A stretch of DNA of 50,564 bases from Bacteroidia bacterium (GTDB lineage Bacteria > Bacteroidota > Bacteroidia > Bacteroidales > VadinHA17): NCBI GenBank assembly GCA_026391555.1, contig JAPLEB010000121.1, forward strand, positions 1-50,564, written 5' to 3'. The stretch's first letter is position 1, and each line of letters starts with the position of its first letter. This document shows, piece after piece, positions 13,197 through 34,027 of this stretch. The notes under the pieces were generated by a model, which was not told where the DNA came from, made no database searches, and saw only the letters and a list, made by a program, of their open reading frames with translations. A program made the position numbers and the translations under genes.

Positions 13197-13208
13197 ACAA
13201 ACGTTTGT
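13197..13208. promoter_or_regulatory. LacI-type operator, copy 2
   Basis: ACAAACGTTTGT, identical to 10956-10967. It overlaps the -33 TTTG of the array promoter, so bound repressor would block transcription. Confidence 0.7.
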
Positions 13209-13235
13209 ACATATAATTTTTATTTCTTATGTTTG
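13204..13235 (+). promoter_or_regulatory. Promoter of the sulfatase/ADP-ribosylglycohydrolase array
   Basis: TTTG (13204-13207), 20 bases, TATGTTTG (13228-13235): an exact fit to the Bacteroidota consensus. It lies inside the duplicated region and is overlapped by the operator. The predicted leader to the first sulfatase is about 280 bases. Confidence 0.6.
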
Positions 13236-13524
13236 TCTGGAATAGCTAATAAATACTAATGAGATACTAATTAATAATATTTATAAACCGTTATTGCACA
13301 GAGCATAATAATCTCATAAGTACCTGTTAAATACAAAAAATGATAAAATCCTGGAAATAGAAAAACAGAAAGGGCAGAAGAATAACATTGCTTGAATAAC
13401 AAAAAAAGAAGCACATTATAATTATACAAACTAAATATCCTATGATAAAAACTTTCAGAAACAGGGATTAGCCACAGATTATGCAAAATGTATTTTATAA
13501 AACTTAAAACAATTAATTATTACA

Positions 13525-15105
13525 GTGAAAATTAAGATATCGAGTTTTAATCTTATGCTTCCGGGTATTTTGATCATAACTTTTCCCGGTTGTAAAGAAC
13601 AACAAACAGTGCGGCCTAATATATTGTTTTGCTTAGCTGATGATGCTTCATTTCCCCACATGGGACAGAATTGCAGATGGATTAATACCCCGGCTTTTGA
13701 CAAGGTTTCCCGCCAGGGTATTTTTTTTGAAAACGCTTATACCCCAAATGCCAAATGTGCTCCTTCGAGAGCTAGTATTTTAACGGGAAGAAATTCCTGG
13801 CAACTTAAAGAAGCAGCTAATATGTTTTGCTACTTTCCTGCTGAGTTTAAAACGTATCCGGAAGCTTTTGCAGAAAATGGATATTATGTAGGGTCTACTG
13901 GCAAAGGATGGTCGCCGGGAGAACCGGGAATGAAAGACGGAAAACTTCGGGAACTTGCTGGTAAAGAATGGAGTAATCTAAAAACAACTCCTCCAACCAA
14001 TAAAATATCAAAAATTGATTACGCAACAAACTTTGAAGAATTTTATAATAACAAACCGCGAGGAAAACCATTTTGCTTTTGGTTTGGAAGCAATGAGCCA
14101 CATAGAGGGTATGAATACGCTTCATCTTTAAAGGCAGGGAAAAAACCCAGCGATGTAGATAATGTGCCTCCATTCCTTCCTGATAATGAAACTGTAAGAA
14201 CAGACCTGTTGGATTATGGATATGAAATTGAATATTTTGATCTGCAGGTGCAGCGCATGTTGGATTTTCTTGAAAAAAACGGGGATCTGGATAATACCAT
14301 TATTATTATCACAGCAGACAATGGGATGCCCTTTCCACGGGCAAAAACTGATGATTATGAATACTCAAATCACATGCCAATGGCAATCATGTGGAAAAAC
14401 GGAATTAAGAAACCTGGTCGTACATTGAAAGACTATGTCAGTTTCATCGATCTGGCCGTAACATTTTTTGATGTTGCGGATATCGACTGGAATAAAAGTG
14501 GTATGCAGTCTTCCCCGGGAAAAAGTTTGTATCCGGTTTTCAAAGATCCAAACCTGAAAGAACCTTTCAGAGATCATGTTCTTATTGGAAAAGAGAGACA
14601 CGGTGTTGGAAGGCCTGATGATTTCGGATATCCTATCAGAGGTATTGTAAAAGATGATTGGTTGTACCTGAAAAATTACAGGAGCGATCTATGGCCTGTA
14701 GGGAATCCCCAAACAGGTTATCCTGACGTGGATGGTAGCCCGACAAAAACTGAGACATTAAACTCCCGGCATCAAACGGGAAAGAGATATTTGTGGGAAT
14801 GGTCATTCGGAAAAAGACCAGCCGAAGAGCTATATTATCTTAAGAATGATCAATATTGTATCCATAACATGGCTGAAATGCCTGAAAATATGGAGATTAA
14901 AGCAAATTTGAAACGTCTGATGGAAGCAGAATTGATCAAGCAATCGGATCCCCGGATGTTTGGTAAAGGTGATATATTTCAGAACTATAAATACTCCAAT
15001 GAGCGTTGGAGAAATGCTTACCAAAGAATTGTTATTAACAAGGAAGATTTGGTTCTTCCCTGGATAAACCCTTCAGATATTGAAAAAGATTTTATCGGGA
15101 AATAA
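13525..15105 (+). CDS. Cys-type sulfatase lipoprotein (N-sulfoglucosamine sulfohydrolase-like)
   Basis: A 526-residue family S1 sulfatase. I place the start at GTG 13525 because it gives a full lipoprotein signal peptide ending FPGC (Cys23); the next ATG is ten codons in and would truncate it. Metal ligands ADD lie at 38-40. The active-site signature KCAPSRASILTGR carries the Cys (78) that must be converted to formylglycine. The sequence style (ADDASFPHMGQ, GKGWSPGEPG) resembles heparan N-sulfatase-like S1_8 members, but I would not fix the substrate. It is first in the forward array, behind the LacI-controlled promoter. An anaerobic sulfatase-maturing enzyme is not in the window. Confidence 0.9.
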   Translation: MKIKISSFNLMLPGILIITFPGCKEQQTVRPNILFCLADDASFPHMGQNCRWINTPAFDKVSRQGIFFENAYTPNAKCAPSRASILTGRNSWQLKEAANMFCYFPAEFKTYPEAFAENGYYVGSTGKGWSPGEPGMKDGKLRELAGKEWSNLKTTPPTNKISKIDYATNFEEFYNNKPRGKPFCFWFGSNEPHRGYEYASSLKAGKKPSDVDNVPPFLPDNETVRTDLLDYGYEIEYFDLQVQRMLDFLEKNGDLDNTIIIITADNGMPFPRAKTDDYEYSNHMPMAIMWKNGIKKPGRTLKDYVSFIDLAVTFFDVADIDWNKSGMQSSPGKSLYPVFKDPNLKEPFRDHVLIGKERHGVGRPDDFGYPIRGIVKDDWLYLKNYRSDLWPVGNPQTGYPDVDGSPTKTETLNSRHQTGKRYLWEWSFGKRPAEELYYLKNDQYCIHNMAEMPENMEIKANLKRLMEAELIKQSDPRMFGKGDIFQNYKYSNERWRNAYQRIVINKEDLVLPWINPSDIEKDFIGK

Positions 15106-15149
15106 CAAATAATTTACAACAATCTCATATAACTTTAATCATTAAAAAA

Positions 15150-17036
15150 ATGCGACAGTTAAGAATGAAATTTCTGTATTCTTCAACAGCCCTGTTTGTT
15201 TTAGGAATCACATCAAGTGTTGTGGCAAGAGAAAGTGAAACTGCCCGGAGGGGAGTGTTACAACAAAAAGATGGCAAACCTAATGTGATCATAGTGATGA
15301 CTGATGATCAGGGCTACGGGGAACTTTCATGCCATGGTAATCCTGTGCTTAAAACTCCGCAGCTTGATAAATTACATGATCGCAGTATCCGGTTTACCGA
15401 CTTTCATGTTGCCCCAATGAGCGCACCTACCCGCGGGCAACTTATAACCGGACTGGATGCGGCACGAAACGGGACAATAAATGTTAGCAGCGGACGCGCC
15501 CTGTTGAGGCCGGAACTAACCACCATGGCTGACATATTTGCATCCAATGGCTACCGGACAGGCATCTTTGGTAAGTGGCATCTCGGCGATAACTACCCTT
15601 TCCGGCCTGAAGACCGTGGATTCCAGGAAACAGTCTGGTTCCCTTCCTCTCATATTAGTTCAGTCCCTGATTTCTGGGGTAATGACTATTTTGATGACAC
15701 CTATATCAGGAATGGGAAACGTGAAAGTTTCAAGGGTTACTGCACCGATATCTTTTTCGACGAGGCTATGGAATTTATCAGTAATTCAGCAAAATCCGGG
15801 AAGCCTTTCTTTACCTACTTGCCTACAAACACGCCTCATGGTCCTCTCATTGCAAAGGATGAGGATAAAAAAGCCATGGCGTTAGCATTTGCTGATTCGC
15901 AGTTTTCTGGTATGAAACCAGCATTAAAGTCCAATTTGATAAACTATTTGGCCATGATCCTCAATATTGATACCAATATAGGCAGGCTTGTCAAATTTCT
16001 TGAAGAAGAGGGCCTTGCTGAAAATACCATATTGATATTCCTTACCGATAATGGTAGTACTCAAGGTCCGTCATATTACAATGCCGGGATGCGTGGCATG
16101 AAAACCGAACTGTGGGAAGGAGGACATCGGGTCCCTCTATTTATCAGCTGGCCTAAGGGTGGATTTACTGCCCCTCGTGATATTGAAGGCCTCACAGAGG
16201 TTCAGGATATCCTGCCTACCCTGGTTGATCTGTGCATACTAAATACTCCGGCCTCAACGAAATTTGATGGGATCAGTTTAGCCCCCGTTTTGCGTGGTAA
16301 GAAAAAGATAGATGATGACAGGATACTGGTAATCAACTATAGCCGGATGCCCTCGGGTTTTAATTACCCGTCGCCTTATTCACAGTCCATCCTGAAGCGT
16401 AACGGTGCGGGTGTGCTTTGGAAACGATGGAGGTTACTTGAGGATCGTGAATTAAATGATCTCACTGCAGATCCGTTACAACAGGTCAATGTCATTGATC
16501 GTTACCCGGAGGTGGCAGAAAAAATGCGAAGTCATCTCAACAAGTGGTGGAATGAGGTTAAGGATATCGCCAATGAATCGCAAAGGGTTGTCATTGGGAA
16601 CGATAGAGAAAATCCCACAATGCTGACAGCCTGCGAATGGATGGATGTTTTTATCGACCAGCAGGGACAGGTCAGACGTGGTCTTAGTGCAAACAGTTAC
16701 TGGGAACTTCTGGTAGATCAACCCGGGGAGTATGAGTTTGAGTTGCGGCGATGGCCTAAAGAGATAGATGTTCCGTTGATGGATAAGAGCTCTGAATTTG
16801 ATACGGCCCTGCCTATTACACAAGCACGGATATTTATTAGCGGCATAAATCATTTGGCGATAGGGGAAAGAAAACCTTATGGATTTGACGGTCTGACGAA
16901 AACTGTCAAGCCTGGTGAAAAATCTGCTGTTTTTACTGTTAAACTTGAAAAGGGACCTATGGCTCTGCATACCTGGTTTGATGCTGCAAAAACTTCTTTA
17001 CATGGTGCCTATTACGTATATGTAAAACGCCTGTGA
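15150..17036 (+). CDS. Ser-type sulfatase
   Basis: A 628-residue family S1 sulfatase with an N-terminal signal segment (to about residue 27) and metal-binding MTDDQGYG (50-57). At the modified-residue position it has Ser91 (codon AGC) in MSAPTRGQLITG, where most relatives have Cys. It is therefore a Ser-type enzyme that needs a maturase able to oxidise serine. About 125 residues after the catalytic domain (from TACEWMDVF) form an extra beta-rich domain seen in some arylsulfatases. A second in-frame ATG five codons downstream is an alternative start. Its stop is 84 bases before the first ADP-ribosylglycohydrolase-like gene. Confidence 0.9.
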   Translation: MRQLRMKFLYSSTALFVLGITSSVVARESETARRGVLQQKDGKPNVIIVMTDDQGYGELSCHGNPVLKTPQLDKLHDRSIRFTDFHVAPMSAPTRGQLITGLDAARNGTINVSSGRALLRPELTTMADIFASNGYRTGIFGKWHLGDNYPFRPEDRGFQETVWFPSSHISSVPDFWGNDYFDDTYIRNGKRESFKGYCTDIFFDEAMEFISNSAKSGKPFFTYLPTNTPHGPLIAKDEDKKAMALAFADSQFSGMKPALKSNLINYLAMILNIDTNIGRLVKFLEEEGLAENTILIFLTDNGSTQGPSYYNAGMRGMKTELWEGGHRVPLFISWPKGGFTAPRDIEGLTEVQDILPTLVDLCILNTPASTKFDGISLAPVLRGKKKIDDDRILVINYSRMPSGFNYPSPYSQSILKRNGAGVLWKRWRLLEDRELNDLTADPLQQVNVIDRYPEVAEKMRSHLNKWWNEVKDIANESQRVVIGNDRENPTMLTACEWMDVFIDQQGQVRRGLSANSYWELLVDQPGEYEFELRRWPKEIDVPLMDKSSEFDTALPITQARIFISGINHLAIGERKPYGFDGLTKTVKPGEKSAVFTVKLEKGPMALHTWFDAAKTSLHGAYYVYVKRL

Positions 17037-17120
17037 ATGAATGTTAATAATCATTTGTGATTTCCTTATATAACATATTTTAAGTTCTGTTAATTATCAC
17101 TAACGTTAAAACAGTAAACT

Positions 17121-18458
17121 ATGAAAGCAAAATTTAAAAGCACATCTTCGATAGTTTTTCTTTTTCTGTGTCTGTTTTTTCTCTCAAACTTATTACCATC
17201 TGCATTATATGCCCAGGGGACAGATAATGCAATTCAGTACCGCCAACTTCCCATGGATGTATATAAGGATAAAGTGGCAGGAGGTTGGCTTGGACAAGCT
17301 ATTGCTGTTCTTTGGGGTCAATGGACAGAGGGTAAATGGCAGACTTCAATTGTGCCCTTCGATCTTGAAGACTGGTATCGGGCCAAAACGCCCCCTAAAG
17401 AAATATCAGATAAAGCTGCTGCCATGGATGATCGCCTGAAACGAAGAGAATTTATGTTGCAGTATTATGGGGACAAGAAAAACTGGGAGATATGGGTACC
17501 TGATAAGATGTCTGATCAGGACGATTTATATATTGAGTTTATGTTTCTGCACTCTATTTTAAAAAACGGTCTTGATGTTACTGCTACTGAGATTGCAGAA
17601 GATTGGGTTAAATATTTAGCTCCAAACAGGATATGGGGAGCCAACAAAGCTTCTTACCTGAATTTCCAGAAAGGTATTTGGCCTCCTATGTCTGGTAATC
17701 CTCGCTATACTCCTCAGGGAGACGCCATTGATTATCAGATTGAAGCAGATTTATTTGGACTGATCAGTCCCGGATTGCCCAGAATCAGCAATGCTTGGGG
17801 TGATAAGGTCGGCCACATTATGAATTATGGTGACGGTGTTTATGGCGGAATGGCTATGTCAGCCATGTATGCTGCGGCATTTTTTGAAAGCGATCCGCGT
17901 AAATTGGCAGAATATAGTTTGAAGGCTATCCCATCGGAAAGTGGTTATGCTAAAATGGTACAAGATATGCTTGATGTTTCACAAAAGTACCCCAATTGGC
18001 AGGATGCATGGAAAGTAATAAAACAAAAATGGGGAATGAAGGACGGAAAACCTGTCCCCGGGCTGGATGTCAGGATTAATGGAGCGTTTGTCTATATGGG
18101 TCTATTATATGGTGGTGGTGATTTCTGGAAAAGCATGAATATATCAATGCGCTGTGGAGTAGATAGTGATTGTAATCCATCAAGTGTTGCAGGTATCCTT
18201 GGTACTGTGATGGGTATGAAGAAGATTCCTGAAAAGTGGGCAATTTTAAGGAATTTGCCAATTGATAATATAGCGATTAAGGATATATTTCCTAATCCTA
18301 TTAAGTGGGATGATATCCTGGATGCAACTGTAGAAGTAGGAAAGTGGAACATACTGCAGAACGGAGGATATTTGAGTGAAGGCGTATTTTTTATACCTTA
18401 TCAAACACCAACATCAGCACCTCTGGAACAAACAATTTGGGTAGAGCAGTCAAAGTAA
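17121..18458 (+). CDS. Secreted ADP-ribosylglycohydrolase-like protein 1
   Basis: A 445-residue protein with a cleavable signal peptide (hydrophobic to about residue 31, LYAQ). It belongs to the ADP-ribosylglycohydrolase (ADPRH/DraG) fold family, all-alpha enzymes with a binuclear Mg site that cleave ribosyl N- or O-glycosidic bonds. Metal-site motifs are SDQDDLY (131-137), DAIDYQIEAD and RCGVDSDCNPSS (DSDCN at 348-352). The Gln before DD and the Cys in DSDCN are shared with the two relatives at 20887 and 24214, so this is a distinct secreted subfamily. Export makes an intracellular de-ADP-ribosylation role unlikely; cleavage of an extracellular ribosyl conjugate is my inference. Confidence 0.85.
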   Translation: MKAKFKSTSSIVFLFLCLFFLSNLLPSALYAQGTDNAIQYRQLPMDVYKDKVAGGWLGQAIAVLWGQWTEGKWQTSIVPFDLEDWYRAKTPPKEISDKAAAMDDRLKRREFMLQYYGDKKNWEIWVPDKMSDQDDLYIEFMFLHSILKNGLDVTATEIAEDWVKYLAPNRIWGANKASYLNFQKGIWPPMSGNPRYTPQGDAIDYQIEADLFGLISPGLPRISNAWGDKVGHIMNYGDGVYGGMAMSAMYAAAFFESDPRKLAEYSLKAIPSESGYAKMVQDMLDVSQKYPNWQDAWKVIKQKWGMKDGKPVPGLDVRINGAFVYMGLLYGGGDFWKSMNISMRCGVDSDCNPSSVAGILGTVMGMKKIPEKWAILRNLPIDNIAIKDIFPNPIKWDDILDATVEVGKWNILQNGGYLSEGVFFIPYQTPTSAPLEQTIWVEQSK

Positions 18459-18494
18459 CTGGTATGAAACATTTACAAAGTAAAAAAGATAGTA

Positions 18495-20420
18495 ATGAAT
18501 AGAAATGCAGGCTTGTCAATTTTGAGGATTTTTTTAGCAACAATAGCGCTACTAATTTTTCAAGGTAATACGACTAAAATTAAGTCCGGTGTTGTTGTTA
18601 ACCCTTTAAAATGGGAATCTCTTCAAACAATTGGTGAAGAAGGAGTTGTTGGTGAAAGAGTAAACCTTTGGAGGAACAATAGATTTTGGTTTATCGGAGA
18701 GTCGGGCTATCTGATTGATGGTTTCGAAAAACGTCCTGGCGTGCATCCATGGCAGGGCGAACATCTTGGTAAATGGCTGCATGCAGGAGTAATTGCCTAC
18801 AAAATAACAGGTAATGAAAAGATAAAAAAAGCGATGGACGAAATGGTCAAAAGGGTATTGGCGACTCAACGTGCTGATGGATACATTGGCACTTATGCCG
18901 ATGAATATACTTTTATGGTGGTACCTGAAAGTACAGATCCAAAATCTATCGCTGATGATATCGAAGCAAGTGAAAGAAAAAAATTGGTAGAAACGGGGAA
19001 GAATATCAGGGGGGGATGGGACACCTGGACGTTTCGTTATAATATCTATGGATTACTCACCTATGAAGAGCTTTTCCCGAATGAAAAAATTGTAGAAGCA
19101 TGCAAGAAAATGGCTGACTTGCTGATTGAAGTATATGGAGTAGATAAATATGATTTAACAAAATATGGCACAAGAAAAGGAATTTCTGCTACAACAGTTC
19201 TTGAATCAATTGTGATGCTTTATCAGCGCACAGGAGAGAAAAAATACCTTGATTTTGCCAAAGAAATTGTTGAGATGAGTGAAAACAATCCTGACCTGCG
19301 ATTAATGGGAACCATGCTTGAAAACAAAAGTGTTGTTCATCCTGGCGAAGGAAAAGGATATCAATTAATGTCTAATCTTATTGGTTATTTCAGATTATAT
19401 CAGGTAACTGATAATGAAAAGTATTTACGTACAGTTGTGAATGCTTGGGATGATATTCAAAGAAATCACATTTTGGTTACTGGGGGTCCCTGGTCACAAA
19501 AAGAGGAATACAACGGAAACAGTGAGTGTTTTGCATATACCGATGATTTTAATCCTGAAAAAAGCCATGTTGAAGGTTGCTGTGATGCCACATGGATTCA
19601 GTTATGTACGCAACTGTTTGAACTCACTGGTGATGCAAAATATTATAACGAAGCTGAAATTACTTTATTAAACAGTGTATATGGTCATCAAGAAATTGAG
19701 GGAAAAGAGTGGTGTTATTATATAGCTCCTAATTCTACCAAACCCTACTATCAGGAAAAATTCCATTGCTGTGGATCAAGCGAGCCAAGAGCCTTAGAGA
19801 TTTATTCAGACCATTTTGCAGGAAGTTTTGAAGGTCATCTTTCAGTCAATACGCTGGCACCTTCAACAGTTGCACTTTCAGACCATTTTGGTGGAGGAAT
19901 CATTCAAATTAAAGGAGACTTTCCAAAAGGTTCGGTAACAAATATTGTTTTAGGAAACAAAAAGACAAAATATTTCACTCTTGAATTCAGAGTTCCGGCA
20001 TATACCTCTTTTAATGGTGTAAAAGTAAATGGGAAAAGTGTTGATGCAAAAATCAATAACAGAGGATTTGTTGAGATTGACAAAGAATGGTCGAAAGGCG
20101 ATGTTGTTGCAATTGACATGGAGTTTAAATTGGTAGCAACAGTTCAACCGGGCAAGAATGGACAAAAATGGATTGCATTCAATTACGGACCACTTGCATT
20201 GGCCCAAAAATCGAATGCTGAGAACTTTAAAGTTGAGCCATTTACAAATGTTGAATTTGTGTGGTATGAAACAAACAAAGCTGTAAAAATGCTAAAACCA
20301 GCTCAATCGTCTGTTTCTAATATTGCTTTCTATATTGAAAACTCCGATGTTACTTTAATTCCATTCTATTTAACAGGTTCAAGAACCTCAGGACCTAAGA
20401 CCTATTTTAAGTGTAATTAA
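18495..20420 (+). CDS. GH127-type (DUF1680) furanosidase
   Basis: This 641-residue protein has an N-terminal hydrophobic segment (to about residue 24) and resembles beta-L-arabinofuranosidases of GH127 and relatives (alpha/alpha barrel plus beta-sandwich). In the characterised enzyme HypBA1 a Cys nucleophile sits in a Zn site made of one Glu and three Cys. Here EGCC supplies Glu360 with Cys362 and Cys363, and HCCGSSEP supplies Cys425 and Cys426, so the site appears complete. It lies 37 bases after the first ADP-ribosylglycohydrolase-like gene, in the same array. A pentofuranoside substrate is plausible; the exact sugar is not. Confidence 0.85.
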   Translation: MNRNAGLSILRIFLATIALLIFQGNTTKIKSGVVVNPLKWESLQTIGEEGVVGERVNLWRNNRFWFIGESGYLIDGFEKRPGVHPWQGEHLGKWLHAGVIAYKITGNEKIKKAMDEMVKRVLATQRADGYIGTYADEYTFMVVPESTDPKSIADDIEASERKKLVETGKNIRGGWDTWTFRYNIYGLLTYEELFPNEKIVEACKKMADLLIEVYGVDKYDLTKYGTRKGISATTVLESIVMLYQRTGEKKYLDFAKEIVEMSENNPDLRLMGTMLENKSVVHPGEGKGYQLMSNLIGYFRLYQVTDNEKYLRTVVNAWDDIQRNHILVTGGPWSQKEEYNGNSECFAYTDDFNPEKSHVEGCCDATWIQLCTQLFELTGDAKYYNEAEITLLNSVYGHQEIEGKEWCYYIAPNSTKPYYQEKFHCCGSSEPRALEIYSDHFAGSFEGHLSVNTLAPSTVALSDHFGGGIIQIKGDFPKGSVTNIVLGNKKTKYFTLEFRVPAYTSFNGVKVNGKSVDAKINNRGFVEIDKEWSKGDVVAIDMEFKLVATVQPGKNGQKWIAFNYGPLALAQKSNAENFKVEPFTNVEFVWYETNKAVKMLKPAQSSVSNIAFYIENSDVTLIPFYLTGSRTSGPKTYFKCN

Positions 20421-20468
20421 TATTGAACTTTAAATAAAAATTATTCTAAATGTGGATAAAAAGATGAG

Positions 20469-20651
20469 ATGGTTGTTAAAAAAAAAGGAATTGTTCCTAA
20501 ATGGATAAAGAAAACTGATATTAAAAAAACGGAGGAATTAACGGAAAAGTTACATCAGTGGCGTGAAAAAGTGGGAGCTAAAATGATGGAACCAAATCCT
20601 GACTATGATCCTTCCGTAAAAGCATATGAGTTTTATAAATATAAGAATTAG
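20469..20651 (+). pseudogene. Sulfatase C-terminal remnant
   Basis: A 60-codon frame whose second half (EELTEKLHQWREKVGAKMMEPN) matches the C-terminus of the sulfatase at 22600 (ELRTKLHQWRAKINAQMMEPN). The catalytic domain is absent and the first 20 codons are Lys-rich without similarity. It is the tail of a deleted sulfatase gene. Confidence 0.72.
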
Positions 20652-20683
20652 AAAAATTTATTAATCATTAAAATTATAATTTG

Positions 20684-20818
20684 ATGAAAGCATTGAAATT
20701 GAGTCTATTATCAATAATTATATTATTTGCATTCAGTATAAATGCTAATAATACGACTAAAGTTCCCAATGAATTTAAAATATCGAAAACAGAGCTACTT
20801 AATAAAATCTCGGATTAG
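20684..20818 (+). pseudogene. ADP-ribosylglycohydrolase N-terminal remnant
   Basis: A 44-codon frame with a signal peptide followed by EFKISKTELLNKISD and a stop. The intact paralogue at 20887 starts the same way (VKISKAELMNKIKGGW) and continues into the catalytic domain. It begins 32 bases after the sulfatase remnant, so the two are the surviving junction of a deleted sulfatase/ADP-ribosylglycohydrolase pair. Confidence 0.7.
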
Positions 20819-20820
20819 AT

Positions 20821-20846
20821 CCTGCCTGCTTTTTGGTACAGGTAGG
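20821..20846. repeat. Small hairpin
   Basis: CCTGCCTG (20821-20828) pairs with CAGGTAGG (20839-20846) with one G-T wobble and a 10-base loop. No T-tract follows. It lies between the remnant and the intact ADP-ribosylglycohydrolase-like gene and could be a processing or partial termination site. Confidence 0.4.
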
Positions 20847-20886
20847 AAGGTATTTTAATGAACAACAAAAAGTAAAAATTTAGAAA

Positions 20887-22464: not shown

Positions 22465-22599
22465 GTATAAAATTCAATATTATTTTGAAATAGTATCAAT
22501 CTGCAATGTAAGTAACAAATTATTTGTAGATAATTCATGAATATGATTAACGCATTTTAAATGTAATTAATTGATTATTAATATAGTATAAAATTAATT

Positions 22600-24198
22600 A
22601 TGAAGAAGAATACAATTGGTTTATACTTGGGTGTAGGACTGACCAGCCTGGTTCATCTCGCCATTGCCGGAAGTCATACCGGCAGTGAAGAGAAAAAACC
22701 CAATGTGGTATTTTTTCTGGTCGATGACCTGGGTTGGACGGATGTAGGTTGCTACGGGAGCAAATTTTACGAAACACCAAATATCGATCGCCTGGCTAAG
22801 GAAGGTGTGCGTTTTACAAATGCATATGCGGCCTGTCATGTTTGTTCCCCAACACGGGCCAGTATCCTGACAGGGAAATATCCGGCCACCCTTCATCTGA
22901 CCGACTGGTTGCCCGGACGCGAGGATTTTCCTTTTCAGAAGCTAAAGAATGCTGTGATCAACCAGAATTTGCCTCCTGAAGAGGTTACTATTGCCGAAAC
23001 ATTGAAAGAACTAGGCTATGAAACTGCTCTGTTTGGAAAATGGCATCTTGGTAGCAAAACAGATCCAACTGAACATGGATTTGATTTGCATACTCCATAT
23101 TCTGTTAATGCAAATCTTGGAAGAAGAGGTTATCTTAATGCCGCAGAAATCCCGGGTTTTGAAGGCAGTAAGGAGGGTGATTATGTAACCGATAGATTAA
23201 CAGATCAGGCAGTTGACTATATCGAAAAAAATAAAGATAAACTATTTTTTGCTTATGTTTCTCATTTTGCAGTGCACGACCCAATTCAGGGACGAAAAGA
23301 TTTGGTTGAAAAATACAGAAAGAAGTTGCAAAACCATCCACCACCAGAAGGCCCTGATTTTATATTGGAAGGCAATCCCGATAATCCAAACAATCCCACT
23401 AGAGAGAATTTAGATGAATTGATAAAACTTCCCGAATATGCTAATACATATAAATCATATCCAAACGATCTGGTAAAGATTAAGCAAAAGCAAAATAATA
23501 TTGAATTTGCGGCAATGGTCGAGAGTGTTGATGAAAGTTTGGGACGAATTTTGGATAAAATTAAAGAGCTTGGTATAGAGGATAACACAATAGTTTTCTT
23601 TTTCTCCGACAATGGAGGAATGGCTGCAATGAATGGTACTCCACAACGTGAAAAGAAATTTGATGAATTGGATGGAGCAGTGTCGACTTCCAATTTACCT
23701 TTGAGAGGAGCTAAAGGATGGCTCTATGAGGGTGGAATTCGTGAGCCTCTTATTGTAAAATGGCCGGGCAAAGGTAAAAAAGGTATTGAGTGTAATGAAC
23801 CGGTTATCAGTATCGATTTTTTCTCTACTATTTTGGAAATGATTGGCGAATCGGATAAAGTGGGCAAAGATGTAGAAGGGAAAAGTTTTGTTCCTTTAGT
23901 AAAAGGTAAAAAAATGGAGAGAGGCCCGATTTATTGGCACTTTCCACACTACAGTAATCACGGGATGCAAAGTCCCGGTGGTGGAATTCGTGACGGAGAT
24001 TACAAATTACTGGAATACTTCGAAAACAACACAGTACAACTATTTAATCTTAAGGAGGACTTGGGCGAGCAAAACAATATTTCAGCCTCCAATCCGGAAA
24101 AGGTTAATGAGCTCCGGACAAAACTTCACCAATGGAGGGCGAAGATTAATGCACAAATGATGGAACCTAATCTGAATTATGTGGGAGATAAATACTAA
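22600..24198 (+). CDS. Cys-type sulfatase (arylsulfatase A-like)
   Basis: A 532-residue family S1 sulfatase with a signal peptide (to about residue 24). Metal-binding VDDLGWTD lies at 41-48 and the active-site signature HVCSPTRASILTG has the formylglycine precursor Cys82. The following TLHLTDWLPG is typical of arylsulfatase-A-like S1_16 members. FGKWHLG and FSDNGG supply other conserved residues. It is followed after 15 bases by an ADP-ribosylglycohydrolase-like gene, repeating the sulfatase/ADPRH pairing seen at 15150-18458. Its C-terminus is the closest local relative of the remnant at 20469. Confidence 0.92.
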   Translation: MKKNTIGLYLGVGLTSLVHLAIAGSHTGSEEKKPNVVFFLVDDLGWTDVGCYGSKFYETPNIDRLAKEGVRFTNAYAACHVCSPTRASILTGKYPATLHLTDWLPGREDFPFQKLKNAVINQNLPPEEVTIAETLKELGYETALFGKWHLGSKTDPTEHGFDLHTPYSVNANLGRRGYLNAAEIPGFEGSKEGDYVTDRLTDQAVDYIEKNKDKLFFAYVSHFAVHDPIQGRKDLVEKYRKKLQNHPPPEGPDFILEGNPDNPNNPTRENLDELIKLPEYANTYKSYPNDLVKIKQKQNNIEFAAMVESVDESLGRILDKIKELGIEDNTIVFFFSDNGGMAAMNGTPQREKKFDELDGAVSTSNLPLRGAKGWLYEGGIREPLIVKWPGKGKKGIECNEPVISIDFFSTILEMIGESDKVGKDVEGKSFVPLVKGKKMERGPIYWHFPHYSNHGMQSPGGGIRDGDYKLLEYFENNTVQLFNLKEDLGEQNNISASNPEKVNELRTKLHQWRAKINAQMMEPNLNYVGDKY

Positions 24199-24213
24199 AC
24201 TAAATACTTTATT

Positions 24214-25833
24214 ATGAAAAGATTATTATTACCGAAAATGTTAATTCTGTTCTTATTAACATCATTATCATGCAAGAACTCGTCAGATGAGTTCAGGACT
24301 ATTAAAAAAGAAGTTCTGAAAGATAAAATTGCCGGCGGTTGGGCAGGCAAGATGATTGGAGTAACTTATGGCGCACCTACCGAATTCAGAGCCCAGGGGA
24401 AGATCTTTACTGATACAATAAAGTGGAAGCCTGCTGATGTAAAAGGAAGTATGTGGCAGGATGATATTTATGTCCAGCTTACATTTATGATGACAATGGA
24501 TAAATATGGGATTGATGCTCCTGCTAAAAAATTCCAGGAAATGTTTGCCAAAGCGGGTTATCGCCTATGGCATGCAAATGTTCAGTCAAGAAAAAATTAT
24601 TATGATTCAATTTTTGCGCCGGAGTCAGGGAGACCGGAGAATAATTTTCACGCTGATGATATTGATTTCCAGATAGAAGCTGATTATATAGGATTTATGT
24701 CGCCGGGAATGCCTCAGACCGCAGCCAGAATTGCAGATAAGATTGGACATATTATGAATTATGGAGATGGTGTTTACGGCGGGATCTTTGTGGGAGCTCT
24801 TTATTCACAGGCTTTCTTCAGGAACGATATCCCGGGAATAATTGATTACGCACTGAAATCTATCCCTTCAGAAAGCGACTATCATAAAATCATTGAGGAT
24901 GTTATAAAGCTTCATCAGCATTATCCAACCGACTGGCAGGCTGCCTGGAAAAAGATTGAAGCTAAATGGGGAGATGTACATATTTGTGGTGCGGGTTCAA
25001 CATTCAATATTGATGCAAAACTAAATGGAGCTTACATAGTTATGGGGCTTCTTTATGGAGATGGCGATCCTGTAAAAACAATGGAAATAACCACAAGGTG
25101 TGGTCAGGATTCTGACTGCAACCCCTCGAATGCCATGGCAGTTCTGGGAGTAATAAACGGCTTCAAAAAGCTTCCGCAGGCTCTTACGAAAGGTGTTATT
25201 GAATACAAAGATTCAATCTTTATTAATACAAACTACTCATTTAACAAGGCAGTAGAAAACACATATAATTATGCGTTGGGCCTGATAAAAAGTGAATCAG
25301 GCAGTGTTTCAGGAAACAGGATAAAAATTAAAGTTCAGAATCCTGTCGCACCTGCATTGGAGGTCTCTTTCCCAAAGGTTGTCTTTGACAAAAAGATCTC
25401 TGTGTTTGAAAAGGGTCCCTGGAAATTCAAAGGCAAATGGCAGACTGTTACAAGGGAACCAAAAAATGGGGACGAGATAATAAAAGTATCTCAATTTGCT
25501 GAAAAGAAAGGAGATAAGGTGGAATTTACATTTAACGGTACCGGTGTGTCACTGACAGGATCATGGAATAAGGAAGGTGGCAAGGCCGAGATATTCGTTG
25601 ACGATAAATTTGACCGCACAATTGATACATATTTCAATTATAACGGGCAGCAATATGGTAATACAAGCATCTGGCATAAATTCAACCTTACTCCGGGGAT
25701 TCACAAGATAAGAGTAGAGCCCAGGGGCGAAAAACGGGCTGAAGCGGAAGGGACAAAGATCAATATCATTGAGGCTCTTACCTTTATTACTGCGCCTAAG
25801 AAAAATGAAAATGTGAAACTCACATTTGAATAG
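24214..25833 (+). CDS. Secreted ADP-ribosylglycohydrolase-like protein 3 with C-terminal module
   Basis: A 539-residue lipoprotein with signal ending SLSC (Cys about residue 20). The ADPRH domain has QDDIY (82-86), HADDIDFQIEAD, IMNYGDGVYGG and RCGQDSDCNPSN (D299). From about residue 385 a beta-rich, jelly-roll-like module follows (GPWKFKGKWQTV, GDKVEFTFNGTGVSLTGSW, HKFNLTPGIHKIRVEPRGEK), resembling sugar-binding modules that hang behind catalytic domains. Architecture and motifs match the 20887 protein, so they are paralogues. It is 15 bases behind the sulfatase and probably translated from the same message. The next gene is 120 bases on, encoding a sugar permease. Confidence 0.87.
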   Translation: MKRLLLPKMLILFLLTSLSCKNSSDEFRTIKKEVLKDKIAGGWAGKMIGVTYGAPTEFRAQGKIFTDTIKWKPADVKGSMWQDDIYVQLTFMMTMDKYGIDAPAKKFQEMFAKAGYRLWHANVQSRKNYYDSIFAPESGRPENNFHADDIDFQIEADYIGFMSPGMPQTAARIADKIGHIMNYGDGVYGGIFVGALYSQAFFRNDIPGIIDYALKSIPSESDYHKIIEDVIKLHQHYPTDWQAAWKKIEAKWGDVHICGAGSTFNIDAKLNGAYIVMGLLYGDGDPVKTMEITTRCGQDSDCNPSNAMAVLGVINGFKKLPQALTKGVIEYKDSIFINTNYSFNKAVENTYNYALGLIKSESGSVSGNRIKIKVQNPVAPALEVSFPKVVFDKKISVFEKGPWKFKGKWQTVTREPKNGDEIIKVSQFAEKKGDKVEFTFNGTGVSLTGSWNKEGGKAEIFVDDKFDRTIDTYFNYNGQQYGNTSIWHKFNLTPGIHKIRVEPRGEKRAEAEGTKINIIEALTFITAPKKNENVKLTFE

Positions 25834-25953
25834 GATATAACAGGTTTCTTATCAGGAAATTCTGAAAATTCTTTCTCACGGGTTTTACAGGCTCTATAAC
25901 ATTTTAACAAACAGAATACAAAATATAATATTAATCTCTAAAAATTTCATACT

Positions 25954-26955
25954 ATGTTTATTCCACAAAGTTATTCACTGGCAATTATCCTGTGCATCGT
26001 AACCATGCTGTGCTGGGGTTCATGGGGTAACACCCAAAAACTTGCAGGTAAAACCTGGCGTTTTGAATTATTCTACTGGGATTATGTAATAGGGATTCTC
26101 CTCTTTTCCCTTTTGCTTGGATTCACACTTGGCAGTAACGGAGAAAATGGCCGGGGATTTATTGAAGATATCAGGCAGGCAGAAAGGGGGAACATCCTGA
26201 ATGCAATGGTTGGAGGTGTGATCTTCAATGCTTCCAACATTCTTCTTGTAGCAGCGATGGCAATTGCAGGAATGGCAGTAGCTTTTCCAGTTGGTGTTGG
26301 GATTGCTCTTGCCCTTGGTGTTATTATTAACTATGTTTTTGCACCACAAGGAAATGCCACCTGGCTTTTCGGAGGAGTTGCGCTTATTGTAGCTGCCATA
26401 ATTATTGATGCAATCGCATACAAAAAACATAGCGCCTCATTACAAAAGGTTTCGGGCAAAGGAATACTCTTATCAGTTTCAGCAGGAGTGTTGATGGCTT
26501 TGTTTTATCGCTTTGTTGCCAGTTCGATGGTCACGAGTTTCGAGTTGCCTGAATCAGGGAAATTAACCCCATATTCAGCAATATTCTTTTTTTCAATAGG
26601 TGTGCTGGTCAGCAATCTCCTTTTCAACTATTTAATCATGAAAAGACCCTTTGAAGGTGAACCACTTTCATTCAAAGATTATGCAAAAGGAAGTTTTAGC
26701 GTTCATCTCACAGGTATTCTGGGAGGTGTTATCTGGAACATCGGAATGGCAATGAGCATCATCGCATCGGGGAAAGCAGGATTTGCAATCTCCTACGGAC
26801 TGGGACAGGGAGCAACAATGATTGCAGCAATATGGGGTGTCTTTATATGGAAAGAATTTAAAAATGCTCCGAAGGGTACCAATACATTAATTGGCTTGAT
26901 GTTCCTCTTATTTCTGGCCGGATTAACTTTAATAATAATGGCAAAAAACGTATAA
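25954..26955 (+). CDS. GRP/RhaT-type sugar permease (candidate ribose importer)
   Basis: A 333-residue integral membrane protein with about ten hydrophobic helices, beginning LAIILCIVTMLCWGSWGNTQK. This pattern is typical of the glucose/ribose porter and L-rhamnose permease branch of the drug/metabolite transporter superfamily. GMAVAFPVGVGIALALG and AISYGLGQGATMIAAIWGVF are conserved helix motifs. Ribokinase follows nine bases downstream and two nucleoside hydrolase-like genes after that, so D-ribose or a related pentose is the most likely substrate (inference from context). A permease of this type also sits with ribokinase and nucleoside hydrolase in the ribose-utilisation locus of Bacteroides thetaiotaomicron, as far as I recall. 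Confidence 0.8.
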   Translation: MFIPQSYSLAIILCIVTMLCWGSWGNTQKLAGKTWRFELFYWDYVIGILLFSLLLGFTLGSNGENGRGFIEDIRQAERGNILNAMVGGVIFNASNILLVAAMAIAGMAVAFPVGVGIALALGVIINYVFAPQGNATWLFGGVALIVAAIIIDAIAYKKHSASLQKVSGKGILLSVSAGVLMALFYRFVASSMVTSFELPESGKLTPYSAIFFFSIGVLVSNLLFNYLIMKRPFEGEPLSFKDYAKGSFSVHLTGILGGVIWNIGMAMSIIASGKAGFAISYGLGQGATMIAAIWGVFIWKEFKNAPKGTNTLIGLMFLLFLAGLTLIIMAKNV

Positions 26956-26964
26956 AAATTTGAC

Positions 26965-27879
26965 ATGGGAAAAATTGTGGTAATAGGGAGCAGTAATACC
27001 GATATGGTGGTTACCGCGCCAAAAATACCTGTCCCTGGTGAGACTATTTTGGGAAATGAATTCAATATAATTGCCGGCGGGAAAGGCGCTAACCAGGCTG
27101 TTGCTGCTGCCCGGGCAGGTGGCATAGTAACTTTTATCGCAAAAGTGGGAGACGATGACTTTGGGGAAAATGCGGTAGCAGGTTATAAAGCCGACAATAT
27201 CAATACGGATTATATTTTTATAGACCCTGACAGACCATCAGGTATTGCTATTATTATTGTTGAAGAAGGATCCGGTCAAAACTCCATTGTTGTTGCAGGC
27301 GGTGCAAATAAAAGTCTTTCGATTGATGATATTAAATCAGCAGAAAAGCTGATATCAGAATCTGATGTTGTTTTGATTCAATTGGAAATACCATTGGAGG
27401 TGGTTGAATTTTCTTTGAAACTTGCCAAAAAATATGGGGTTAAAACTATTTTAAATCCCGCGCCGGCACAGCCTTTAAGTGAAGAAATTTTAAGTCTGGT
27501 AGATATTATAACACCCAACGAATCCGAAATGCAAATCCTGACCGGATTAAACCCGGAAAATGACGGGGACGTGGAAAAGGCTGCAGCTAAACTATTAGAA
27601 AAAGTAAATGAAACAGTATTGGTTACACTTGGTAGTAAAGGTGTTTACTTTATTTCTAAGAGTGGCGAAAATGGTTTTGTACCAACAATCAAAGTAGAGG
27701 CCGTTGATACAACAGCTGCCGGTGATGTGTTTAATGGATATCTTGCAGCAGCAATAGCTGATGGGGAAAGTTATTTAGAAGCAATTTCTATTTCGAATAA
27801 AGCAGCTACTATTTCAGTAACAAGAAAAGGGGCTCAGCCGTCAATTCCTAAAATAAATGAATTAATTAAAAAGAGATGA
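26965..27879 (+). CDS. rbsK: Ribokinase
   Basis: A 304-residue PfkB-family kinase, which phosphorylates D-ribose at C5 with ATP to feed the pentose phosphate pathway. N-terminal signature GSSNTDMVV (8-16), substrate-binding GGKGANQAVAAARAGG (38-53), and the C-terminal DTTAAGDVFNGYL (248-260) whose Asp254 is the catalytic base. Length and motifs are those of ribokinase more than of fructokinase or adenosine kinase. It is cytoplasmic, placed between the permease and the secreted nucleoside hydrolases. The stop is one base before the next start codon, so coupling is tight. An RbsD-type pyranase is encoded separately at 42124. Confidence 0.92.
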   Translation: MGKIVVIGSSNTDMVVTAPKIPVPGETILGNEFNIIAGGKGANQAVAAARAGGIVTFIAKVGDDDFGENAVAGYKADNINTDYIFIDPDRPSGIAIIIVEEGSGQNSIVVAGGANKSLSIDDIKSAEKLISESDVVLIQLEIPLEVVEFSLKLAKKYGVKTILNPAPAQPLSEEILSLVDIITPNESEMQILTGLNPENDGDVEKAAAKLLEKVNETVLVTLGSKGVYFISKSGENGFVPTIKVEAVDTTAAGDVFNGYLAAAIADGESYLEAISISNKAATISVTRKGAQPSIPKINELIKKR

Positions 27880-27880
27880 G

Positions 27881-28888
27881 ATGAAAAAAAAATTAGTAAG
27901 TCTTATTTCAGCTTGCGCCATTTTGATTTTTGCATGCAACTACCAGGGGCAAAAGGAAAATAACACATTGAATAAATTGCCGGTTATTTTAGACACAGAT
28001 GCAAATAACGAGCTCGACGACCAACACGGGTTGGCCTACCTGTTCTTTAATAGTAGCACTTTTAATATTAAAGCAATTACAGTTAACGCAACTCGAAATG
28101 GCGGTAATATTGACGGACATTATGCTGAAGCAGAACGTGTAATGAAACTTTGTAAGGTAGTGGATAAAATTCCTCTTTTGAAGGGTGCAAATGGATCATT
28201 TACTGAGATTGAGAGTGATTTAACTAATGCTAAGTTTGATGGATTTGAGGCAGTTGATTTTATTATTGCTGAAGCCCAAAAACACACCAACGAAAAGTTA
28301 ATTATTATTGCAGTGGGTAAACTTACAAATATAGCCCTGGCTTTAAAAAAGGAGCCGGCAATAGCTAAGAATATTCGTTTGGTATGGTTGGGTGCAAACT
28401 ATCCGGAGCCTGGGGAGTATAATTTAGCTAACGATATTCCTTCGATGAATTACATTCTAAAAACAAATATCGATTTCGAAATGGTTACCGTACGCTACGG
28501 AACGCCTTCAGGTACCGATGCAGTTCGTATTACCAAAGATGAAGTATTAAAAAATATGCCTGGTGTGGGGCCAAAAATTACAACGCCTATAGTTGGAAGG
28601 CATGGAGGTGAATTCTACAATTTTGGCGATTATTCTGTAAATCTTTTTGAACACATACAATATCATGGTGATCCTCCTTCACGTGCTTTATTTGATATGG
28701 CTGCTGTTGCAATCGTTAAAAATCCGAAGTGGGCTGAATCCTCCCTTTTACCCTGTCCAATAATGATTGATGAGAAATGGGTTGAGCAACCCGGGAATAG
28801 CAGGAAGATTACCATTTGGGGAAATTTTGATAAAGAAGGTATTGTGAATGATTTCTACCAGATAATGAAGAATAGTAATTTACCTTAA
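27881..28888 (+). CDS. Lipoprotein nucleoside hydrolase-like protein 1
   Basis: A 335-residue member of the inosine-uridine preferring nucleoside hydrolase (IUNH) family, which splits N-ribosides into base and ribose. A lipoprotein signal ends IFAC (Cys19). The Ca-binding cluster DTDANNELDD (38-47) is conserved in this family, and GAYL-equivalent and C-terminal GDPPSRALFDMAAVA supply the remaining metal Asp. Being exported, it would act in the periplasm or at the surface and liberate ribose for the adjacent permease and kinase. The nucleobase preference cannot be read from the sequence. Confidence 0.87.
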   Translation: MKKKLVSLISACAILIFACNYQGQKENNTLNKLPVILDTDANNELDDQHGLAYLFFNSSTFNIKAITVNATRNGGNIDGHYAEAERVMKLCKVVDKIPLLKGANGSFTEIESDLTNAKFDGFEAVDFIIAEAQKHTNEKLIIIAVGKLTNIALALKKEPAIAKNIRLVWLGANYPEPGEYNLANDIPSMNYILKTNIDFEMVTVRYGTPSGTDAVRITKDEVLKNMPGVGPKITTPIVGRHGGEFYNFGDYSVNLFEHIQYHGDPPSRALFDMAAVAIVKNPKWAESSLLPCPIMIDEKWVEQPGNSRKITIWGNFDKEGIVNDFYQIMKNSNLP

Positions 28889-28962
28889 TATGATTAATTT
28901 TTAATACAGTATTAGAGAAGTTATTCTACATGATATGTTAAATTAATTAAAGTAGAGGGGGA

Positions 28963-29907
28963 ATGAAAAGTTATAAACCTTTGGTAAAAACAATAATTAT
29001 TCTTTTTTTGATTATCATCCTGTTGCCAACTCAAATTTTTGCCCAGGGGAAACAACAGAAGAAAATAATCTATGATACTGATATGTGCCTCGACGTGGAT
29101 GATGTTGGTGCGATGGCTCTCTTACATGCCCTGGAAAATAAAGGAGAATCAAAACTTTTGGCCGTTGTTTTCAATGAAGTCCATTCCAGCGGGGCACCTG
29201 CCATTGACGCTATCAATACCTGGTATGGTCGCGGCAACATACCCATTGGGATCTATAAGGATAGTTTAAGTAAACCCGACATATCACCATATCTGGAAGC
29301 GGTAGCTAAGTTTCCCCATGATCTGGAAACAGCTAATGCTCCAAGTGCTTTGGATGTTTATCGCAAGGCGCTGAGAGGGCAACCAGATGGTTCAGTAACT
29401 ATAATCAGTGTGGGTTTCTTAAATAATCTAAATGATCTTTTAATCGCAGAACCGGAACTGGTAGCTAAAAAGGTAAAAGAGCTGGTGATCATGGCCGGGC
29501 TCAATAATGATGGATTCAACCTAACCCGACATAATTTAACAGAAATTTCAAAACATGTTATTGACAATTGGCCGACTCCTTTGGTAATCAGTCATAATGG
29601 TGGGAGTATTCGTACAGGTGAGATATTGAAGGACGCTCCTGAAGCAAATCCTGTTCGTGAAGGGTTCTATAAATACTTCAAGGATTCATTTAAGGGGCGT
29701 TCAAGCTGGGATGAGCTGGCTGTTTTATATGGAGTACGCGGGGTTGGGACTGTATTTAATGAGATTACCATCGGCACGGGTTCTCTTCCCAACGGTTATG
29801 TCTGGAATATGAAGCCTGGCTTCCGGTCACATCTTGAACATAAGATCTCTGATGCTGACTTTGTAAAGATTATTGAGGATCTGATGCTGGAAGATCCTCA
29901 AAAGTAA
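28963..29907 (+). CDS. Secreted nucleoside hydrolase-like protein 2
   Basis: A 314-residue IUNH-fold protein with a cleavable signal peptide (hydrophobic to about residue 26, IFAQ). The Asp cluster is DTDMCLDVDD (38-47), with a different spacer from classical nucleoside hydrolases. The later segment GRSSWDELAVLYGVRG carries the C-terminal metal Asp. It belongs to a divergent subfamily common in Bacteroidota glycan loci, where riboside cleavage is assumed and not shown. It follows the first nucleoside hydrolase by 74 bases and should be part of the same array. Confidence 0.8.
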   Translation: MKSYKPLVKTIIILFLIIILLPTQIFAQGKQQKKIIYDTDMCLDVDDVGAMALLHALENKGESKLLAVVFNEVHSSGAPAIDAINTWYGRGNIPIGIYKDSLSKPDISPYLEAVAKFPHDLETANAPSALDVYRKALRGQPDGSVTIISVGFLNNLNDLLIAEPELVAKKVKELVIMAGLNNDGFNLTRHNLTEISKHVIDNWPTPLVISHNGGSIRTGEILKDAPEANPVREGFYKYFKDSFKGRSSWDELAVLYGVRGVGTVFNEITIGTGSLPNGYVWNMKPGFRSHLEHKISDADFVKIIEDLMLEDPQK

Positions 29908-30059
29908 CTAATGAGAGAAGGAAATTCAAAATTTAATATTTTCAATTATAATAAAATTTTATTCAAAACGATGAAACGGGCCATGAGAAAACCTTGTACA
30001 CAAAGAGGGATGATTGTAGGGAGTTCCATCGGGCAAATACAATACAATACAATAAACAT

Positions 30060-31391
30060 ATGAAAGTTATTTTTGTAATAGTTTTATTTTTTGCAGGCAG
30101 CATTATAAAAATTAATGCGCAAACTGAAATTTTAGTGAACACCAACAGCGTAATTGCAACCGGGGTAAGTAATAAGTATGGGATTAATTTAAATGCAGGG
30201 ATGGATGCAGATGCTAACCGTCCGGATGCACGTCCATTGTATCAGGCATTACAGGAATTGGGGGTAAAACATTTGCGTTACCCTGGAGGCAAAAAATCGT
30301 TGTATTATTCTTTCGCTGCGGCTCCCTATAACGACCCAACAACACAATTTTGGACAGGTTACTATAAAGATGATGCTTTAAATTATTCATTGAATTTTGA
30401 CCAATTCATGACTATATGCAATCAAACAGGAGCTTCACCACATATAAATGTGGCCTACAATCCTGGTGCCGGTTTTGGTCCTGATTTGGCTGCCGCATGG
30501 GTTAAATATGCAAATGTTACAAAGAAATATGATATTAAATATTGGGAAATAGGAAATGAAATGTTTAAACCCGAATTGGGTTTTACGGTAACTACATTAG
30601 CTGCGGTAGTAAAATTATATTCGAAGTCTATGAAGGCTGTTGATCCAACAATTAAAATTGGTGTATCCTGGAGCAATACAAAGAATATTATTAATGCATG
30701 TGGCACTGATATTGATTTTGTTACTTGTAGTAATTATGAGTGGGAGTTGGGCAATAGTGCTTTATCTTCATATAATACTTATGCCACAACCAATGACGTT
30801 AATTTAGTCAAGGTTGATGCTACTGCTACTTTACAAAGTGTCGTATCAGAGTATAATTCAATTACCTGGAATGGAACACCATGGGATCTTACCAATAATA
30901 CTGGGAAAGGGCTGATTAATTTCGACCATACAGGCCAATTTTTAAAAAATGCGAAAGTTGATTATGCTAATTTTTGGAATACCCGTTGGTACAACAATAC
31001 GAAGCCAATAAACAATGCTTTAGATGATAAAAACGACCTGACTCCTGTAGCAAAATCATTAACCTTATGGGCTAAGTTTATTAAGGACAAATTAGTTAGC
31101 ACTACCGGAAGCACATCTATTGTAACTTATGCTGCTTATGATTCAAATACCGGCGATTTAAACGTTTTCTTAATAAATAAAGCAACTTCGGCACAAAGCG
31201 TGAATGTCACTGTAACATCTGCAAATAACTACGCTTCCCCTTCTCAGGCGTGGCAATACAAAGGGTCAGGTGATACAGATGAAAATCCAACGGTAAGTAA
31301 TACCGGTACTGTTACAGTAGCAGGTAATAAAATAATAAACATGAGTCTGCCTGCGGTATCTATTACCACATTACTCTTTGTTATCTATTAA
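30060..31391 (+). CDS. GH51-like clan GH-A glycosidase (candidate arabinofuranosidase)
   Basis: I start at ATG 30060, which gives a 443-residue protein opening with a clean signal peptide (MKVIFVIVLFFAGS...INAQ); an upstream in-frame ATG at 29994 would bury it. HLRYPGGK and YWEIGNEMF (Glu167 as acid/base) are the signatures of clan GH-A, and VVSEYNS supplies the candidate nucleophile Glu264. The order and PGG motif recall GH51/GH79 retaining enzymes. The C-terminal 110 residues form the usual beta-domain (NVFLINKATSAQSVNVTV). With GH127 and the ribosyl hydrolases it points to furanoside substrates. The family assignment is moderately sure; the linkage is not. Confidence 0.75.
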   Translation: MKVIFVIVLFFAGSIIKINAQTEILVNTNSVIATGVSNKYGINLNAGMDADANRPDARPLYQALQELGVKHLRYPGGKKSLYYSFAAAPYNDPTTQFWTGYYKDDALNYSLNFDQFMTICNQTGASPHINVAYNPGAGFGPDLAAAWVKYANVTKKYDIKYWEIGNEMFKPELGFTVTTLAAVVKLYSKSMKAVDPTIKIGVSWSNTKNIINACGTDIDFVTCSNYEWELGNSALSSYNTYATTNDVNLVKVDATATLQSVVSEYNSITWNGTPWDLTNNTGKGLINFDHTGQFLKNAKVDYANFWNTRWYNNTKPINNALDDKNDLTPVAKSLTLWAKFIKDKLVSTTGSTSIVTYAAYDSNTGDLNVFLINKATSAQSVNVTVTSANNYASPSQAWQYKGSGDTDENPTVSNTGTVTVAGNKIINMSLPAVSITTLLFVIY

Positions 31392-34021: not shown

Positions 34022-34027
34022 AATAAG

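Follow-up and report, generated by a model that had tools for sequence, protein, structure and literature searches.

A putative RUS-like operon combining sulfatases with exported ADPRH-fold proteins in a Bacteroidia genome

We analyzed a contig of 50,564 nucleotides (further referred to as the window) from the 3.5-Mb, 164-contig genome of a Bacteroidia bacterium. Its subject is a run of twelve plus-strand genes at positions 13525–31391 that encode, in this order, two sulfatases, an ADP-ribosylglycohydrolase (ADPRH) fold protein, a GH127-like enzyme, a second ADPRH-fold protein, a third sulfatase, a third ADPRH-fold protein, a permease, a ribokinase, two nucleoside-hydrolase-fold proteins and a GH51-like glycosidase. 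With modest confidence, we read it as an operon of the ribose-utilization system (RUS) type that has been modified for a sulfated substrate and would remove first sulfate and then a pentofuranose from a glycan. Bearing on this reading are an operator confined to the operon and a ribose-type regulator gene, a core of ribose genes that recurs in other genomes, and an exported subfamily of ADPRH-fold proteins with altered metal-site residues.

Regulator, operator and gene content

The LacI-family gene at 9750–10793 likely encodes the repressor of the operon. The palindrome ACAAACGTTTGT occurs in exactly two copies in the whole genome, one upstream of this gene and the other upstream of the operon (Table 1), while the same pattern read backwards, taken as a control, has one genomic occurrence. 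When one mismatch was allowed, the window contained 2 matches versus a mean of 0.17 in shuffled sequences. The LacI-type operator proposed in an earlier note, which was made from the sequence of this DNA alone, is thus real. The sister locus L107 (G018:C407) from the same genus keeps the same palindrome between the LacI and SusC genes; there, the regulator and the operon are direct divergent neighbors around a single copy. In the window, approximately 290 bp comprising the 5'-end of the LacI gene, the promoter and the operator are duplicated at 78% identity within 10738–13263, and the two copies are separated by an AbiEi/AbiEii toxin-antitoxin pair (11220–12805). Since regulator and operon adjoin in L107, this pair looks inserted. 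The simplest reading would be an insertion between regulator and operon, accompanied by duplication of the regulatory stretch, so that the operon retained its operator.

All genes listed in the earlier note were recovered in a single forward run, with Pfam scores above the cut-off for every gene except the GH51-like one. The Pfam scan of the latter protein yielded no match, and it was recognized by phmmer comparison with solved GH51-type arabinofuranosidases. Its open reading frame was listed from a TTG at 29994; the ATG at 30060 is the likelier start as judged by eye, as were the signal and lipoprotein leaders. The structure nearest to the GH127-like protein is 5mqo (3.3e-20), and its residues E360, C362 and CC425-426 match what we take to be the Zn-Cys site of HypBA1. 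The divergent nucleoside hydrolase at 28963 has four non-self matches at 1e-50 among 393 genomes of the order, all of them in one ADPRH-ribokinase-permease locus, L154 (G601:C10). This locus contains five nucleoside-hydrolase-fold genes, of which one is fused to PKD domains, around the ADPRH, ribokinase and permease genes.

Table 1. Coordinates of the operon genes, the regulator, the operator copies and the gene remnants
Feature	Position	Strand	Evidence
LacI-family regulator, RbsR-like	9750..10793	-	Pfam LacI/Peripla_BP; top NCBIfam match NF047341 RbsR 258.7 bits, below cut-off 382
Operator palindrome ACAAACGTTTGT, 5' of LacI gene	10956..10967		
Operator palindrome ACAAACGTTTGT, 5' of operon	13197..13208		
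S1 sulfatase, CAPSR motif, lipoprotein-like leader	13525..15105	+	PF00884 121.3 bits
S1 sulfatase, Ser-type SAPTR motif	15150..17036	+	PF00884 181.8 bits
Exported ADPRH-fold protein without C-terminal domain	17121..18458	+	PF03747 98.2 bits; alignment
GH127-like, beta-L-arabinofuranosidase-type enzyme	18495..20420	+	PF07944 151.4 bits
Remnants of a sulfatase C-terminus and an ADPRH N-terminus	20505..20810	+	Sulfatase part, 22600 gene, 53% in 34 aa; ADPRH part, 20887 gene, 40% in 42 columns
Exported ADPRH-fold protein, C-terminal CBM35-like domain	20887..22464	+	PF03747 127.6 bits
S1 sulfatase, CSPTR motif	22600..24198	+	PF00884 191.5 bits
Exported ADPRH-fold protein with C-terminal domain	24214..25833	+	PF03747 106.4 bits
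GRP/ureide-permease-type sugar permease	25954..26955	+	PF07168 76.5 bits, PF06800 37.8 bits, above cut-off
Ribokinase (PfkB)	26965..27879	+	NCBIfam equivalog TIGR02152 367.7 bits, cut-off 299.65
Exported nucleoside-hydrolase-fold protein, DTDxxxxxDD motif	27881..28888	+	PF01156 76.1 bits
Divergent exported nucleoside-hydrolase-fold protein	28963..29907	+	PF01156 40.4 bits
GH51-like exported glycosidase, WEIGNE motif	30060..31391	+	phmmer to 3s2c arabinofuranosidase 1.1e-11

Conservation of the ribose core

Four samples of loci were compared: 80 loci from titled records, which are the best 80 by score of at least 557 relatives; 27 stretches from a search of relatives, 24 of them from the same genus; 53 loci from genomes of the order; and six further loci. 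The samples overlap: 11 loci in the second to fourth samples have sequence in common with loci of the first. The stretches reach up to about 10 kb to either side and are often cut by contig ends. Order-level counts are lower bounds, given that up to three candidates were scored per genome (up to five in the search with the 28963 protein).

Ribokinase, GRP permease and nucleoside hydrolase genes were found, respectively, in 31, 29 and 19 of the best 80 loci, in 17, 13 and 10 of the 27 stretches (16, 12 and 10 of the same-genus 24), and in 22, 21 and 10 of the 53 order-level loci; of these 53, SusC was found in 17 and GH127 in two. Among the best 80 of at least 557 relatives, the core extends to one record each of Acidobacteria (L018) and Verrucomicrobia (L060), and many Acidobacteria records have an ADPRH but no such core. 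Fifteen control stretches (L213–L227), taken around relatives of the 13525 sulfatase, contained no ribokinase, GRP, nucleoside hydrolase or ADPRH genes. Judging by these counts and the empty controls, the core of ADPRH, ribokinase, GRP permease and often nucleoside hydrolase is therefore a real and widespread unit, and sulfatases are one among several optional additions to it.

The earlier note did not know the combination of sulfatases with tandem ADPRHs as a described system; tandem ADPRHs recur, which makes the array less novel than claimed. In 10 of the 53 order-level loci, a ribokinase and a SusC gene are followed by three consecutive ADPRH genes, and nine of these loci also have the permease. 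These loci (L135, L136, L137, L140, L144, L148, L155, L157, L164 and L166) share the order ribokinase-SusC(-SusD)-ADPRH-ADPRH-ADPRH. The first ADPRH of the triple is divergent, with a length of 666–679 aa in the three frames read (L135, L148 and L157). Ester removal is a recurrent companion of ADPRH loci, since L107 has two carboxylesterases, L135, the sole triple-ADPRH locus scanned, has two PF00756 esterases following the ADPRHs, and L169 has one.

The closest comparisons are L107 and L169. L107 shares with the window the operator, the LacI regulator (82% identity), the GRP permease (91%) and the ribokinase (83%), and its ADPRH at 14603–15949 is 82% identical to that at 17121. It differs in having SusC/D, another ADPRH, the carboxylesterases and a GH127 that is only remotely related (28%). 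Sulfatase, nucleoside hydrolase and GH51-like genes were not recognized there. L169 (G620:C45), from another family of the order, has the order SusC-SusD-repeat protein-esterase-two sulfatases-ADPRH-ribokinase-GRP. Its two sulfatases are related to two of those in the window (59% and 57%) and likewise lie next to ADPRH, ribokinase and GRP genes, whereas SusC/D, the esterase, the repeat protein and the single ADPRH set it apart, and neither nucleoside hydrolase nor GH127 was recognized in it.

Ribose loci of this kind are not new. The available parts of two published accounts describe the Bacteroides thetaiotaomicron Rus polysaccharide utilization locus BT2803-BT2809, with ribokinase, nucleoside hydrolase and permease, for ribose (PMC12596196, PMC10434189). 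By comparison with those parts, the operon studied here likewise encodes a ribokinase, nucleoside-hydrolase-fold proteins and a permease, which may carry ribose; it lacks SusC/D and adds three sulfatases, GH127, GH51-like and three ADPRH genes. It has a ribokinase above the cut-off, as well as nucleoside hydrolase and ADPRH genes, either of which would fit a RUS, whereas the SusC/SusD pair, present in L107, L169 and most of the triple-ADPRH loci, is missing from it. For this reason we classify it by gene content as a putative RUS-like variant and not a standard member.

The ADPRH-fold subfamily

All three ADPRH-fold proteins fit the PF03747 profile (ADP_ribosyl_GH) and fold, and the 24214 and 20887 proteins are 37% identical over 528 columns. 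A CBM35-like domain is predicted in the modeled ADPRH-fold protein. No solved structure is close to these proteins in sequence, the best match scoring 25.8 bits. Solved members of the ADPRH family read TDD and DxDS at the metal site. In contrast, in 169 frames of the subfamily the residue preceding DD is Gln (80), Tyr (63), Phe (14), Glu (8) or Asn (4) instead of Thr or Ser, and the residue following DxD, readable in 160 of these frames, is Cys in 159 and Ser in one. The subfamily thus differs from the ARH3/DraG ADP-ribosylhydrolases in these replacements of the Thr of TDD and of the Ser/Thr of DxD(S/T), in being exported, and in having the CBM35-like domain. Because the metal-ligand motifs are altered, we place it in the ADPRH superfamily but not among the canonical ADP-ribosylhydrolases. 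The domain together with the altered metal-site residues suggests that the substrate is a glycan rather than ADP-ribose.

The subfamily has at least 557 relatives among at least 587 pattern matches. It was found in 7 of 296 genomes of the phylum (own genome included), in 50 of 393 genomes of the order, and, at a looser limit, in 23 of 41 genomes of the relatives draw (own genome included). Elsewhere in the genome, two ADPRHs (on contigs C146 and C95) belong to a different subfamily with the motif DDTDCT. A third, on C63, is of the same subfamily; it adjoins a gene that looks by eye like an alpha-galactosidase, and two sulfatases lie 4 to 6 kb further on.

In this operon, the ribose core is paired with sulfatases and with putatively sugar-binding enzymes of the ADPRH fold, which may point to a class of sugar-cleaving enzymes not described before. 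It is a real possibility, although somewhat less likely than not, that the exported (Q/Y/F)DD...DSDCNP subfamily with the CBM35-like domain represents a new family of glycoside hydrolases. Its members would cleave the O-glycosidic bonds of ribofuranose or another pentofuranose in polysaccharides decorated with esters or sulfate, and this operon would be its version for sulfated substrates.

Sulfatases in ADPRH loci

The three sulfatase genes have PF00884 domains and the motifs CAPSR, SAPTR and CSPTR, which fit what we take to be the formylglycine pattern C/S-x-P-x-R, and the genome encodes an anaerobic sulfatase-maturating enzyme (495.2 bits, cut-off 349.45); accordingly, they are classed as S1 formylglycine sulfatases. 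The nearest solved relative of the 22600 sulfatase is the kappa-carrageenan sulfatase 9fo1 of S1_16 (5.6e-137), and only 15 bp separate this gene from the following ADPRH gene at 24214. The best matches of the 13525 and 22600 sulfatases in the 393 order genomes both lie in L169, beside the ADPRH, ribokinase and permease genes, the match of the former being 59% identical. Sulfatase, GH127, permease, ribokinase and ADPRH genes also occur together in L162 and L109, from the same family as L169.

The window shares with L012, L033, L035 and L169 a sulfatase gene placed immediately upstream of an ADPRH gene on the same strand; none lies directly downstream of the 184 ADPRH genes scoring at least 250 bits, which are partly non-independent. 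The remnants at 20505–20810 of the window represent a decayed pair of this kind. Because of these four loci, the sulfatase-ADPRH link is probably not pure coincidence. No published account of ADPRHs with sulfatases in such loci surfaced in a literature search that covered subscription journals thinly. Beside these sulfatases and ADPRHs, L033, L169 and L209 encode exported proteins whose N-termini resemble each other and which look like beta-helices by eye; their lengths range from 361 to 482 aa. The two tested, one each from L033 and L169, had no Pfam match; these proteins are possibly an endo-acting enzyme for the substrate.

Evidence against the sulfated-substrate reading and alternative explanations

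Several observations weigh against an operon adapted to a sulfated glycan. Sulfatases were found near the ADPRH subfamily in 7 of the best 80 loci (6 before a more sensitive profile was used), in 5 of the 53 order-level loci, and in one each of the 27 stretches and the six further loci, as raw counts that take no account of the sulfatase background of each genome. They are absent from most ADPRH loci, being present in 14 of 166 rows and in none of the 24 same-genus stretches. Proximity alone says little, given that the genome has 117 sulfatase places. Nine of the 14 sulfatase-bearing loci have no ribokinase; the other five (L018, L033, L109, L162 and L169) have both ribokinase and GRP. Relatives of the 13525 sulfatase occupy 38 places in 19 of the 393 order genomes, and of the 36 places other than those in the window and in L169, 15 were viewed and had no ADPRH. 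The 22600 sulfatase has five close matches besides the window in the 28 genomes of the family that includes G620: one adjoins an ADPRH, two lie 8.8 kb (with unrelated genes between) and 12 kb from one, and for two (G719:C519, which is cut by a contig end, and G710:C20) no ADPRH was seen in the stretch viewed. The Pfam scans found no SusC/SusD pair between 13525 and 35230, and the nearest pair, at 44359–49489, has no operator. A terminator-like site at 20825–20846 makes a single transcript uncertain; the scan gave 22 such sites in all versus 11.9 in shuffles. Finally, the listing of the B. thetaiotaomicron Rus locus in the available parts of the published accounts names a DUF4969 protein and no ADPRH (PMC12596196, PMC10434189).

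Sulfatase linkage as a general rule was therefore rejected. The co-occurrence search and the neighborhood comparison proposed in the earlier note had a mixed outcome: ADPRH, ribokinase, GRP permease and nucleoside hydrolase are kept together, whereas sulfatases are a minority feature that nevertheless stands directly upstream of the ADPRH in four other loci. As to its claim of an expanded ribose locus, the ribose-type locus with its own operator, RbsR-like LacI gene and conserved core is borne out, while release of ribose from a sulfated conjugate stays an inference. An ADPRH-like protein may also belong to the B. thetaiotaomicron locus, as the earlier note states.

The best-surviving alternative, which we consider unlikely, is that the operon simply scavenges nucleosides, nucleotides or ADP-ribose in the manner of a RUS, with the sulfatases, GH127 and GH51-like enzymes as passengers acting on other glycans. 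The core without sulfatases is indeed the commoner form, the operon has two nucleoside-hydrolase-fold proteins, and the genome is rich in sulfatases. What speaks against this alternative is the recurrent placement of a sulfatase directly upstream of the ADPRH, the CBM35-like domain on the latter, and the replacement of the metal-site Thr of TDD in 169 of 169 frames.

It is rather improbable that the released sugar is another furanose (L- or D-arabinofuranose, apiose or aceric acid) and that the ribokinase and permease act on some related pentose. This is what the GH127 and GH51-like genes would suggest, along with a weak NCBIfam match to aceric acid hydrolase (98.7 bits, cut-off 950) and the GH127, PF13204 apiosidase-like and rhamnosidase genes beside the core in L162. 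However, the kinase scores above the equivalog cut-off for ribokinases, RbsR is the top match of the regulator, albeit below cut-off, and Pfam scans of the operon revealed no gene for arabinose or apiose catabolism. Because kinase and regulator are of the ribose type, ribose is the favored candidate for the released sugar.

Two units with their own promoters, one for a sulfated glycan (13525–20420) and one for ribose (20887–31391), are very improbable: the 466-bp gap between them (20421–20886) contains a decayed pair of sulfatase and ADPRH remnants and the terminator-like site, but each side of it has both ADPRH and sulfatase genes, and L107 joins the first-part ADPRH with the second-part permease and kinase in one forward run under one operator.

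Flanking genes

The end of the operon could not be placed at 31391, as the forward run continues with GH130, MFS_2 and AGE genes starting 42 bp later, and the scan found no plus-strand terminator-like site between 31391 and 31434. The region 31434–35230 is a beta-mannan-type cassette of a GH130 mannosylglucose phosphorylase (match 6.6e-203), an MFS_2 transporter and a cellobiose-2-epimerase-like gene. On the minus strand, 35885–44110 is a fucose-type operon with GH29, a RhaM-like mutarotase, Fe-ADH, Zn-ADH, an SSF symporter, an RbsD/FucU protein and a ROK regulator; the RbsD/FucU protein passes the D-ribose pyranase cut-off (105.7 versus 93). Relatives of five genes of this operon occur in L211 together with two sulfatases.

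Proposed mechanism and significance

Gene content, operator and regulator are read directly from the DNA, whereas all catalytic steps of the preferred reading, an operon for a sulfated glycan, are predicted. The sulfatases would remove sulfate esters, and the GH127 and GH51-like enzymes would take off arabinofuranose-type neighbors. The CBM35-like domain on two of the ADPRH-fold proteins could hold the glycan while the ADPRH-fold and nucleoside-hydrolase-fold proteins cleave the bond to a pentofuranose, most probably ribofuranose. Uptake of the free sugar would fall to the GRP permease, the ribokinase would yield ribose-5-phosphate, and ribose or ribose phosphate would relieve the repressor.

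To our knowledge, ribose is hardly recognized as a target of polysaccharide loci. As these loci repeatedly pair the ADPRH with ribokinase and permease, and some of them with esterases or sulfatases, a single enzyme assay could reveal what a large uncharacterized family of at least 557 relatives does. The same assay could also point to an unrecognized ribose-bearing, sulfated glycan.

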